A stretch of DNA of 64,000 nucleotides from Salegentibacter echinorum (GTDB lineage: Bacteria; Bacteroidota; Bacteroidia; Flavobacteriales; Flavobacteriaceae). Shown in pieces: positions 10,177 through 50,395 of the stretch. The notes beneath the pieces were generated by a model, which saw nothing but the letters and a program-made list of their open reading frames with translations, was not told the DNA's origin and made no database searches. Positions within the stretch are counted from its first letter, which is position 1, and every line of letters begins with the position of its first letter. The DNA is taken from contig NZ_FQVT01000004.1 of the NCBI RefSeq assembly GCF_900129445.1, forward strand, positions 186,001 through 250,000. Reading direction: 5' to 3'. A program made the position numbers and the translations under genes.

Positions 10177-10446
10177 TTATTTTCTTAATCCTAATTCTTT
10201 AATGATGGCACGATATCTCATAATATCTTTCTTCATTAAATAATCAAGTAAGCTTCGTCTTTTACCTACCAGTCTTACCAGGGAACGCTCAGAGTTATAG
10301 TCTTTACGATTCGATTTAAGGTGCTCTGAAAGGTGTGCAATTCGATAAGTAAATAGGGCGATTTGTCCCTCGGCAGAACCTGTGTCGGTTTTACTCTTAC
10401 CGTGCTTTTCAAAAATTTCTTCTTTCTTTTCTTTTGCTAAATACAT
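10177..10446 (-). CDS. rpsO: 30S ribosomal protein S15
   Basis: An 89-residue primary 16S rRNA-binding protein of the small-subunit platform. It has the S15 signatures TGSAEGQIALFTYRI, HLSEHLKSNRKDYNSER and LVGKRRSLLDYL and the normal length. It starts with ATG, with a -7 box (TATCTTTG, minus strand, 10500-10507) about 55 nt upstream. A strong terminator follows, then the pnp leader. Confidence 0.98.
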   Translation of the reverse strand: MYLAKEKKEEIFEKHGKSKTDTGSAEGQIALFTYRIAHLSEHLKSNRKDYNSERSLVRLVGKRRSLLDYLMKKDIMRYRAIIKELGLRK

Positions 10447-10499
10447 TCCAATATTAATTTTAATGATTTTTATGTATTGACAGTTTATCCATCAGGCGG

Positions 10500-10507
10500 C
10501 AAAGATA
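10500..10507 (-). promoter_or_regulatory. -7 promoter box for rpsO
   Basis: Minus-strand TATCTTTG, a perfect TAnnTTTG match, placed to give an mRNA leader of roughly 45 nt. Confidence 0.6.
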
Positions 10508-47342: not shown

Positions 47343-49370
47343 CTAAATTAAGCCGGCGCGTTTTAATAGGGCATCGGGTTTTGGTGCTTTTCCGCGGAAA
47401 TTTTTATAAAGCGTCATGGGGTGCTGTGTTCCGCCCTGTGATAAAATATTGGCCTTAAATTTATCGGCGATTTCCCTACTAAAAATACCGTGCTCCTTAA
47501 AGTATTCAAAAGTATCGGCATCTAAAACTTCGGCCCATTTATAGGAATAATATCCTGCTGAATAACCTCCCTGGAAAATATGGGAAAAAGCGGTACTCAT
47601 ACAGTTTTCTGGCACGTTGGGATAGAGTTTTGTAGGTTCAAAAGCTTTGTCTTCATTGGCTTTTACGTCTGTTATGTCCGTAGGGTCAACTCCGTGCCAA
47701 CTGAGGTCCAGTAAGCCAAAGCTTAATTGTCTTACCGTGAACATTCCTTCCTGGAAATTAGCCGAATCTTTAATTTTCTGAATTAATTCCATGGGAATCA
47801 CTTCTCCTGTTTTGTAATGTTTGGCAAATAGTTGGAGCGCTTCTTTTTCGTAACACCAGTTTTCTAATAACTGGCTGGGCAGTTCTACAAAGTCCCAATA
47901 TACGTTCGCGCCAGAAAGGCTTGGATACTGGGTGTCACCCAACATTCCGTGCAGCGCGTGACCAAATTCGTGAAAAAGCGTGGTTACTTCATTAAAAGTT
48001 AATAATGAAGGTTCATTTTTTGAAGGTTTGGTGAAATTACAAACAATGGAAATGTGGGGCCGCTCTATTTTTCCATCTTTTTTAAATTGTGGTTTGTAGC
48101 CCGTCATCCAGGCACCGTCGCGTTTTCCGGGCCTTGGGTGGAAATCGGCATAAAAAAGTGCTATCTCGTTTTTATCTTCATTTACAACTTTAAAAGTTTT
48201 TACATCTTCGTGATATTTATCGATATCGAAAACTTCTTTAAAACTTAGGCCATATAATTTATTGGCTACCGTGAACACACCATCAATTACACTTTCCAGT
48301 TTAAAATATGGCTTTAACTTTTCATCATCTAAGGCAAATAGTTTTTGCTTTAACTTTTCACTGTAATAGGCAGCATCCCACTTTTGCAGTTGGTCAATAT
48401 CGTCGAGATCTTTAGCAAAATTTTCAAGTTGGGCAAATTCCTTTTCGGCTGCCGGTTTTGCTTTTTCTAATATTTCGTCAAGAAATTGCTCGACTTTTTC
48501 TGGCGTTTCGGCCATGCGTTCCTCAAGTACAAAATGAGCGTGGGTTTGATATCCTAAAAGTTGTGCTCTTTGGTATCTTAATTTTGCAATCTTTAATACG
48601 TTCTCCTGGTTGTCCAGTTTATCGTTATGAAAACCTTTAGCACCAAAAGCCAATGCCATCTTTTTACGTAATTCGCGGTTTTTGGCATATTTCAAAAATG
48701 GTAAATAGCTTGGATACTCTAAGGTAAATATCCAACCTTCTTTCTCGCGATCTTTAGCTACCTGGGCGGCTTCGTCTTTAAAGCTATCGGGTAAACCATC
48801 TAAATCTTCTTCCTCGGTAAGGTGTAACTCAAATTTATTGGTTTCAGCAAGTACATTTTGACCAAAAATTAGACTTAGTTTAGAAAGTTGCTTGTCCAGA
48901 TCTCGCAGTTCATTTTGCTTATCTAAAGCTAGATTGGCCCCATTTCTGGAAAAAGCTTTATATTTTCTATCTAATAAAGTCTTCTGTTCGGTGTTAAGGG
49001 ATAAGTTATCCTTATTATCGTAAACCGACTTTACTCGTTCAAATAGGGCTTTATTAAGAATAATATCATTACTGAATTCCGATAGAAGTGGAGAGACATC
49101 CTGGGCTATCTTTTGAATTTCTTCATTGGTTTCAGCGGAATTAAGATTAAAAAAGATTCCGGCAATCCTATCTAACTTCTCGCCACTAAATTCTAACGTT
49201 TCAATCGTATTGTGAAAAGTGGGTTCTTCTGGGTTTTCTGTGATTGCGTTTATTTCTTCCCGGGCTATTGCTATAGCTTTTGAAATGGCCGGTTTAAAAT
49301 GCTTGTTTTCAATTTTTGAAAAAGGTGCATAATTAAAATCCTGTAATAATGGGTTATTTTCATTGCTCAT
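47343..49370 (-). CDS. M3-family oligopeptidase (Dcp/PrlC-like)
   Basis: A 675-residue zinc peptidase that degrades short peptides. The zinc site is HEFGH in VTTLFHEFGHALHGML, about two thirds along, with the third ligand Glu in the following helix (DFVELPSQLLENW). The long helical N-terminal lid and the closing YKWAEVLDADTFEYF segment fit peptidyl-dipeptidase Dcp/oligopeptidase A. There is no signal peptide, so it is cytoplasmic. It starts with ATG; a -7 box (minus TAAATTTG, 49404-49411) lies upstream. Confidence 0.95.
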   Translation of the reverse strand: MSNENNPLLQDFNYAPFSKIENKHFKPAISKAIAIAREEINAITENPEEPTFHNTIETLEFSGEKLDRIAGIFFNLNSAETNEEIQKIAQDVSPLLSEFSNDIILNKALFERVKSVYDNKDNLSLNTEQKTLLDRKYKAFSRNGANLALDKQNELRDLDKQLSKLSLIFGQNVLAETNKFELHLTEEEDLDGLPDSFKDEAAQVAKDREKEGWIFTLEYPSYLPFLKYAKNRELRKKMALAFGAKGFHNDKLDNQENVLKIAKLRYQRAQLLGYQTHAHFVLEERMAETPEKVEQFLDEILEKAKPAAEKEFAQLENFAKDLDDIDQLQKWDAAYYSEKLKQKLFALDDEKLKPYFKLESVIDGVFTVANKLYGLSFKEVFDIDKYHEDVKTFKVVNEDKNEIALFYADFHPRPGKRDGAWMTGYKPQFKKDGKIERPHISIVCNFTKPSKNEPSLLTFNEVTTLFHEFGHALHGMLGDTQYPSLSGANVYWDFVELPSQLLENWCYEKEALQLFAKHYKTGEVIPMELIQKIKDSANFQEGMFTVRQLSFGLLDLSWHGVDPTDITDVKANEDKAFEPTKLYPNVPENCMSTAFSHIFQGGYSAGYYSYKWAEVLDADTFEYFKEHGIFSREIADKFKANILSQGGTQHPMTLYKNFRGKAPKPDALLKRAGLI

Positions 49371-49403
49371 GAGCGCTCTTTAATTTTGATTATAAAAACA
49401 GGA

Positions 49404-49411
49404 CAAATTTA
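49404..49411 (-). promoter_or_regulatory. -7 promoter box for the M3 peptidase gene
   Basis: Minus-strand TAAATTTG, a TAnnTTTG match about 34 nt before the ATG. Confidence 0.45.
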
Positions 49412-49516
49412 TTTAATAAAAACTGCTTGAGCCATCATTTAAAACTGCTTAACCTAACTTTGACGTTTTTGACTATATTTTTTAACACAAAAGCTTATTT
49501 TTCTAATAAAATCTCC

Positions 49517-49524
49517 TACATTTG
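49517..49524 (+). promoter_or_regulatory. -7 promoter box of the putative small RNA
   Basis: TACATTTG, a perfect plus-strand TAnnTTTG match in a region with no plus-strand protein gene. A good -33 TTTG is not seen. Confidence 0.55.
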
Positions 49525-49530
49525 CATTTC

Positions 49531-49731
49531 GAAAATTTGAAAAAAGAATAAGCTCTGAACTTTTAAGTTAAAAGGGTACAATTTAAACCTGTATTTCAGG
49601 GTTAATTTAATACGATATTGTAGTAGCTTTTAGAGTTTTTCTGGTTAAATATTTAGAATGGTTAATAAATAATTTGTACAGAGTTAGGTGAGTTTACTAC
49701 AATTAAGCCACGTTTTGAACGTGGCTTTTTC
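49531..49731 (+). ncRNA. putative small structured RNA, 6S-like
   Basis: A plus-strand transcription unit of about 200 nt with no open frame, bounded by a TACATTTG -7 box and a strong terminator. Its two halves are partly complementary, as in a rod-shaped RNA: CTCT (49553-49556) with AGAG (49680-49683), GTACAA (49576-49581) with TTGTAC (49674-49679), and ATTTAAACC (49581-49589) with GGTTAAAT (49643-49650). A local hairpin lies at 49560-49574. Length and shape fit 6S RNA, of which a Flavobacteria-specific form is catalogued in Rfam. The presence of an RNA gene is well supported; the 6S identity is an inference. Confidence 0.55.
49706..49731 (+). terminator. intrinsic terminator of the putative small RNA
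   Basis: AGCCACGTT (49706-49714) and AACGTGGCT (49718-49726) form a 9-bp stem with a 3-nt loop followed by TTTTCTTTT on the plus strand. No plus-strand protein gene precedes it. Confidence 0.85.
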
Positions 49732-49736
49732 TTTTA

Positions 49737-49750
49737 CTCGATAATCGAAA
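49737..49750. repeat. CTCGATAATCGAAA palindrome
   Basis: A copy of the CTCGATNATCGAG intergenic motif with one changed end base, directly after the small-RNA terminator. Confidence 0.45.
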
Positions 49751-49857
49751 TTTATTCCTAAACATATTGGAAGCTCCAAGGTTTGCTTCGAAATCATAAT
49801 AACCCTCCTGTTATATACCTCGTGGATTTTCCCTTAGCTAATTTATTGAGACTATTT

Positions 49858-49912
49858 ACTGCCCACTGCTACTGCAAACTGCTTACTGAATACTGCCAAC
49901 TGCTTACTGAGC
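49858..49912. repeat. heptanucleotide tandem repeat ACTGCNN
   Basis: Eight units in a row: ACTGCCC, ACTGCT (6 nt), ACTGCAA, ACTGCTT, ACTGAAT, ACTGCCA, ACTGCTT, ACTGAGC. The array runs across the purE stop codon at 49904-49906, so the last codons of PurE are part of it. Confidence 0.75.
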
Positions 49913-50395
49913 CCCGCTAACTTCCTTAGCTCCATCCACAACTTTTTTCTTAAGTGCTTCTTTATAGCTAATTATATTGTTTAAGGTTTTCTCGTTGGAG
50001 GTTCCAATAATTTGCGCAGCGAGAATTCCGGCGTTTTTAGCGCCGTCTAAGGCTACTGTTGCTACGGGAACGCCACCGGGCATTTGTAAAATAGATAAAA
50101 CAGAATCCCACCCATCTATGGAATTACTGGATTTCACCGGCACTCCAATAACCGGAAGCGGGGAGAGGGAAGCGATCATCCCAGGAAGATGTGCAGCGCC
50201 ACCGGCTCCGGCAATAATCACTTTTATACCGCGCTGGTGAGCGTTCTTGCCATATTCAAATAGTTTTTCTGGGGTGCGATGCGCCGAAACGATATCTACT
50301 TCTACCTCCAGTTCGAGTTCTTTGAGAACATCTATTGCATCCTGCATTACTTTTAGGTCGCTGGTGCTCCCCATAATTACTGCTACCTTGCTCAT
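49904..50395 (-). CDS. purE: N5-carboxyaminoimidazole ribonucleotide mutase
   Basis: Converts N5-CAIR to CAIR in purine synthesis, acting directly after PurK. The 163-residue class I PurE has the signature VIMGSTSDLKVM, VDIVSAHRTPEKL with the catalytic His, and IIAGAGGAAHLPGMIAS. It follows purK after 6 nt. The last few residues and the stop codon fall in an ACTGCNN tandem repeat, so the C-terminus may vary between strains. The start is ATG. Confidence 0.96.
   Translation of the reverse strand: MSKVAVIMGSTSDLKVMQDAIDVLKELELEVEVDIVSAHRTPEKLFEYGKNAHQRGIKVIIAGAGGAAHLPGMIASLSPLPVIGVPVKSSNSIDGWDSVLSILQMPGGVPVATVALDGAKNAGILAAQIIGTSNEKTLNNIISYKEALKKKVVDGAKEVSGAQ

Follow-up and report, generated by a model that had tools for sequence, protein, structure and literature searches.

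A conserved intergenic RNA beside purE in Salegentibacter and related Flavobacteriaceae, a probable trans-acting base-pairing regulator of surface-protein mRNAs

The closest described system is the small RNA (sRNA) Rfp18 of Flavobacterium psychrophilum which is described as trans-encoded and structured and whose deletion is reported to change target mRNA (PMC9723704). One stem-loop of Rfp18 is predicted to pair with several mRNAs for secreted or surface proteins, including an adhesin; the RNA is conserved in the genus Flavobacterium, metalloproteases are among its targets, and the third stem-loop is the pairing region (PMC9723704). By this description, the RNA analysed here is alike in that it is structured, belongs to the same bacterial family and is predicted to be trans-encoded with surface or secreted proteins as targets. 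It is unlike Rfp18 in consisting of one rod followed by a terminator and in having lipoprotein and curlin mRNAs as predicted targets; the two are set apart by description and not by sequence.

The enterobacterial sRNAs MicA, RybB, MicL, OmrA/B and McaS act on mRNAs for outer-membrane proteins, lipoproteins and curli regulators and are dependent on Hfq. Compared by mode of action, they share with the present RNA a short seed pairing near the start of surface-function mRNAs; however, no Hfq was detected here, and the seed would be a structured apical loop. A hairpin loop that starts pairing with a leader is found in CopA/CopT of R1 and in RNAIII of Staphylococcus aureus. To our knowledge, few trans-acting sRNAs whose targets are conserved in evolution have been described in the Flavobacteriia, which largely lack both Hfq and Shine-Dalgarno initiation. 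The RNA gene described below very probably encodes a trans-acting base-pairing sRNA that pairs through an invariant loop with the leaders of surface-protein mRNAs. No earlier description of this RNA was found in the open-licence PMC literature or in Rfam 15, and with Rfp18 compared by description only, it apparently represents a new, undescribed family.

The window, that is, the whole 64,000-nt stretch of Salegentibacter echinorum DNA that was analysed, contains the following features at this locus.

49531..49735, or 49604-49735, plus strand: predicted small RNA transcript (fold, terminator, lack of a frame, orthologue alignment)
49517..49524, plus strand: -7 box TACATTTG, distal promoter candidate with a transcription start near 49531 (aligns with the -7 box of relatives, 14 orthologues)
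49590..49597, plus strand: TGTATTTC, weaker proximal -7 candidate with a start near 49604 (its spacing to the rod resembles that of the relatives' box)
49617..49703, plus strand: bulged rod, basal stem formed by 49617-49627 with 49695-49703 (folding, co-evolving halves)
49656..49665, plus strand: invariant apical loop GAAUGGUUAA, the putative seed, closed by strands 49650-49655 and 49666-49671 (complementary to leaders)
49705..49735, plus strand: intrinsic terminator with a 10-bp stem and a T-rich tail (sequence, terminator search)
47343..49370, minus strand: M3-family peptidase gene (PF01432), divergent neighbour (conserved synteny)
49904..50395, minus strand: purE (AIR carboxylase, PF00731), convergent neighbour (conserved synteny)

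A preliminary description of this DNA had proposed an unannotated small RNA gene upstream of purE. Synteny, conservation, the terminator and the co-evolution of the two rod halves give the gene itself good support; its position required correction, as purE is encoded on the minus strand and the RNA gene sits downstream of it in convergent orientation, divergent from the M3-peptidase gene. The proposed lack of a protein frame over about 200 nt was borne out by the ORF list, which holds no ORF of at least 40 aa on either strand between 49517 and 49731. The plus-strand -7 box is likewise present, since TACATTTG agrees at 6/6 fixed positions with TAnnTTTG, the Bacteroidota -7 consensus. Among homologues, the exact consensus occurred in 19/72 upstream regions compared to 8% of shuffles, a modest enrichment, scored over a stretch outside of which the distal box of the window falls and in which its best match is 4/6. 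Matches to sigma-70 style promoters, which do not apply to Bacteroidota, were at chance level (2 found, 2.5 expected). The terminator, described earlier as strong, has 10 pairs, five of them G-C, and a 3-nt loop at 49705-49727, followed by a T-rich tail to about 49735; alone, however, it does not exceed chance, with 1 terminator found in the region against 0.5 ± 0.7 expected. The locus rises above chance because it is conserved in 14/15 genomes of the genus and in other genera.

The predicted length of the RNA varies with its 5′ end. Alignment of 14 orthologues revealed that the -7 box of the relatives stands much nearer to the rod than the distal box of the window, whose copy has about 80 extra nucleotides (49531-49610) between box and rod, unique among the aligned sequences. 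Two 5′ ends therefore come into consideration, and the RNA may be either about 205 nt long, starting near 49531, or about 130 nt long, if transcribed from TGTATTTC.

BLAST of 49480-49760 recovered the core in 14/15 Salegentibacter genomes, while the fifteenth, 61% complete, matched at the terminator only. The oriented alignment of the 14 orthologues demonstrated a conserved upstream block, -7 box, rod and terminator. The covariance model (CM) built from them produced 16 hits in 397 family genomes (E ≤0.001), 3 within the genus and 13 outside it. Thirteen of the 16 were flanked by the M3 peptidase and purE, and all 13 carry an identical TTTAGAATGGTTAATAAAT; ten of these lie outside Salegentibacter and span six other genera. 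The hits L143, L146 and L147, all outside the genus, had neither the loop nor the purE/M3 synteny and were dropped. In the same 397 genomes an exact 18-mer of the loop region occurred 18 times, 13 of them in the synteny-confirmed RNA genes. A wider scan with an exact 19-mer, using one genome per species (84,980 species), returned 102 loci, of which 67 are the RNA gene as defined by a purE and/or M3 flank in the expected orientation. These 67 belong to Salegentibacter, Gillisia, Christiangramia/Gramella, Salinimicrobium, Leeuwenhoekiella, Dokdonia and some MAGs; the loop is invariant among them by construction, and the CM hits are the fairer evidence of invariance. The RNA always adjoins purE and the M3-peptidase gene, as would also be seen if it were a cis-acting element of a neighbour, either the M3-peptidase leader or the end of the purE transcript (3′). 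This explanation is given next to no credence, as the RNA lies on the strand opposite to both genes, has its own terminator and bears a loop that matches genes elsewhere.

Folding of 49531-49735 gave a minimum free energy of -45.8 kcal/mol compared to -34.9 ± 3.5 for shuffled sequences (z -3.12; 1/200 shuffles as good). The bulged rod suggested earlier could be recovered at 49617-49703, followed by the terminator hairpin. When brackets were read by eye, 25/29 unconstrained folds displayed the rod with the apical loop GAAUGGUUAA closed by UAUUUA/UAAAUA, and those of L189, L230, L252 and L253 did not have the common loop. In the RNA of the window, each loop base is unpaired at a probability of 0.70-1.00, whichever 5′ end is used. 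The basal stem varies between groups with its pairing kept (GUAGUAG/CUACUAC, GCAGUG/CACUGC, CAAUGUG/CACAUUG and AUAGA/UCUAU). In a half-swap test, 61 distinct sequences, grouped by hand and mostly according to record titles, were split computationally and their 5′ and 3′ halves exchanged with the loop held unpaired. The mean energy was -13.13 for native molecules, -12.94 for 486 within-group swaps and -8.47 for 3174 between-group swaps; the native fold was below the mean of its own between-group swaps in 61/61 cases and at or below the best of them in 20/61. The halves of the rod have thus co-evolved, which indicates that the molecule acts as RNA, but the apical loop and its flanks stay the same.

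The rod shape and the size fit 6S RNA, the identity favoured by the preliminary description, and the Flavobacteria do possess a rod-like RNA of similar size, 6S-Flavo (RF01685). However, the RF01685 covariance model gave no hit at this locus, and it recognised a genuine copy once in the same genome on another contig (G000:C28:623613-623735, 96.4 bits; gathering score 85). At gathering scores, the sole Rfam 15 hit in the window lies outside this RNA, namely an S15-Flavobacteria ribosomal protein leader (RF03161, 73.2 bits) at 10444-10507 on the minus strand. With E up to 10, the region 49300-49900 gave sub-threshold matches only and none to 6S; mir-723, Arrc14, rimP, GibS and other weak matches were far under their gathering scores and were rejected. 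An Rfam scan of ten 8-kb loci bearing orthologues returned zero hits. An internal loop (9 and 6 nt) interrupts the rod of the window, but the part conserved across species is the apical loop and not a bubble. Since the conserved part consists of the 10-nt apical loop with flanks complementary to mRNA leaders, the molecule is more likely a regulator that acts by base pairing than an RNA that binds the polymerase, and an identity with 6S RNA is extremely improbable.

The BLAST search within the genus also gave shorter matches, in antisense orientation, to the 5′ leaders of lipoprotein genes. The best site in the window's own genome is C19:165927-165947; its first base precedes the ATG (165974) of a gene for a lipoprotein of 486 aa by 47 nt. 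The family has 4-15 members per genome in 14/15 genus genomes (86 places). Pairing was evaluated for 85 leaders, with the place G009:C15:175304 left out, each against the RNA of its own genome, a relative's RNA being substituted in genome G013 (61% complete, no RNA found). Here, 33/85 leaders beat all 100 dinucleotide shuffles and 46 had at most five shuffles as good, while in the other 39/85, for which over 5 of the 100 shuffles did as well, pairing was not significant. The median pairing energy was -19.9 kcal/mol compared to -14.4 with the reversed RNA. Of the eight members in the own genome, C19:165974 (-29.1) alone outperforms every shuffle, and another stands at 2/100. A second lipoprotein family of Salegentibacter carries TTAACCATTC with its first base 31-32 nt before the ATG (L286, L291, L294, L301).

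No Pfam family corresponds to the lipoproteins as such, and some show only weak or single thrombospondin type 3 repeats. AlphaFold modelling of one lipoprotein target from 10 sequences gave a mean pLDDT of 60.6 and a pTM of 0.34, too weak for a fold search. In the own genome, lipoprotein genes are clustered at G000:C19:163900-174500 (L092) after a protein with a LuxR-like C-terminal DNA-binding part, as judged by reading; one member of the cluster has a thrombospondin type 3 repeat.

The remaining 35 loci of the 19-mer scan comprised 21 in the RNA-bearing clade and 14 in other bacteria. In the clade, 15 are antisense just upstream of an ORF start (counting L190, where just 18 codons precede the locus edge), 5 precede a mini-ORF of 3-5 codons and 1 (L229) does neither; an ORF start follows in 3 of the 14 loci from other bacteria. 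The clade targets include the same lipoprotein family as well as curlin-repeat proteins, for which PF07012 could be confirmed in L235, L245, L358 and L359. In two Bacteroidales MAGs (L210, L256), which share an upstream stretch, the 19-mer complement stands 14 and 10 nt before ORF starts.

The pattern TTAACCATTC-N(8-38)-ATGAR and its reversed form were counted in three sets: the 15 genus genomes (40 vs 18 matches), 10 genomes from other genera that carry the RNA (29 vs 10) and 30 from other genera that gave no CM hit (47 vs 41). Strict gene starts, defined as starts of ORFs of at least 70 aa lying outside other ORFs, followed in 20/29, 14/29 and 0/29 loci, respectively; the genus and RNA-less sets represent 29 of 30 loci each, from the 40 and 47 matches, with L307 and L372 missing. 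One of the 14 starts (L341) is probably due to chance, being by reading neither lipoprotein nor curlin and having a short spacer, and L296, by reading a true target, was not counted because it overlaps another ORF. For the lipoproteins, this contrast between RNA-bearing and RNA-less genomes is confounded, because a search of the 30 RNA-less genomes, run without a positive control, found no homologue of them.

In 62 leaders chosen for carrying the site, its 3′ end stands at a median of 29 nt from the ATG, and the site is mostly unpaired (mean 0.74; at least 0.5 in 60/62). The loop seed resembles CopA/CopT and RNAIII, but a matching hairpin in the target finds weak support: the site can form a mirror hairpin, with flanking arms of 2.87 bp in the 62 leaders compared to 1.87 bp in shuffles and arms of at least 5 bp in 14/62 compared to 6.9% of shuffles.

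Two kinds of property by which an sRNA is recognised were thus found, a separate intergenic gene with its own terminator and without a protein frame, and a conserved, accessible seed complementary to the leaders of genes elsewhere. The gene, the fold with co-evolving halves, the conservation, the synteny and the conserved complementarity to leaders were all computed directly. In the proposed mechanism, transcription from the RNA's own promoter would yield a transcript of 130-205 nt that folds into the bulged rod and the terminator. The rod would present a single invariant 10-nt loop, GAAUGGUUAA, extended by its flanks, and this loop would pair with UUAACCAUUC, which lies some 30 nt ahead of the AUG in surface-lipoprotein mRNAs and, in some genera, in mRNAs for curli-type amyloid subunits. 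From UUAACCAUUC the duplex may spread into the AU-rich flanks. Bacteroidota largely start translation without Shine-Dalgarno pairing, on AU-rich leaders, and for this reason pairing most likely hinders loading of the 30S subunit (ribosomal protein S1), which would be kept off the leader and lead to less translation; RNase III cleavage perhaps follows the pairing. Repression would be clearly the likelier direction of effect, with activation having a substantial minority chance, and the cellular purpose may be the tuning of the cell surface or the biofilm matrix. No Hfq was detected in the genome of the window by a search in which 5/14 control genomes were positive, suggesting that the RNA uses another chaperone or none.

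The same pairing could follow another logic, in which abundant lipoprotein leaders, together with leader copies before mini-ORFs, soak up the sRNA, or in which translation is activated because pairing opens the leader. This alternative fits the presence of several sites in each gene cluster and, in Christiangramia/Gramella, of leader copies before an ORF of only 3-5 codons, but most sites stand near the ATG of full genes, and with the site already mostly unpaired in 60/62 leaders, little structure is left to open; overall it appears rather unlikely. In Christiangramia/Gramella, the pairing-site leader precedes a 3-codon ORF (MKK*, MKT*, MKE* or MKN*) at L193, L194/L340, L214, L219, L231, L260 and L261, and in the four loci examined in context (L193, L194, L214 and L219) it has a regulator-like gene on one side and, on the other, a lipoprotein gene that carries a site of its own.

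Alternatively, the complementarity might not serve RNA pairing: a protein might bind the leader motif as DNA or RNA, and an ancient inverted copy might be the origin of the reverse complement in the sRNA. In favour are the AT-rich and partly palindromic sequence of the motif (TATTTA...TAAATA) and the lack of co-change between seed and leader. A co-change of seed flanks and leaders suggested itself by eye but did not hold on computation, in which the one flank variant gave no clear co-change, the RNA of the own clade being better in 2/6 and 16/23 leaders; in the seed itself, covariation of RNA and target cannot be seen because the seed is invariant. Against a protein site, the loop is identical in 13/13 CM loci with confirmed synteny, which represent seven genera and differ in their stems, it is exposed, and the sites precede different protein families. 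Such an origin is accordingly regarded as quite improbable, and regulation by base pairing remains the preferred reading.

The gap between purE and the M3-peptidase gene was also compared in the 30 other family genomes without a CM hit, in 28 of which the M3 peptidase adjoins purE. A motif search revealed TTAATAGC or CTAATAGC near the 3′ end of purE in 18/30. This element, termed type 2, has an invariant UAAUAGC stretch before a terminator in the 15 of the 18 that were aligned (L311, L317, L320-L323, L325-L327, L331-L333, L335, L336 and L338), the less similar L310, L313 and L319 being left out. Rfam gave no hit in the 15 type 2 loci scanned, 14 of which are among those aligned. One genome carries an intermediate-looking AATGGTTGATTAATAGC (L338). 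Upstream of their -7 box, several type 2 elements (e.g., L320, L322, L323, L327, L331-L333 and L336) carry a palindrome, for example ATTATGCATACATAAT or CTATGCGTGCATAG, that resembles a regulator binding site. It is tentatively suggested, as a possibility less probable than its opposite, that the gap is an old regulatory-RNA locus of the Flavobacteriaceae whose seed changed between clades, with the GAAUGGUUAA rod in Salegentibacter, Gillisia, Christiangramia, Salinimicrobium, Leeuwenhoekiella and Dokdonia and type 2 in about half of the 30 other genera sampled. If this is true, an altered seed would give the RNA a whole new set of surface-gene targets in one step.

The locus is recognisable in many marine species and combines a fixed seed with identifiable predicted targets, the surface lipoproteins and curli-like amyloids. 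The RNA thereby allows direct tests of how an sRNA may act without Hfq and without Shine-Dalgarno sites.
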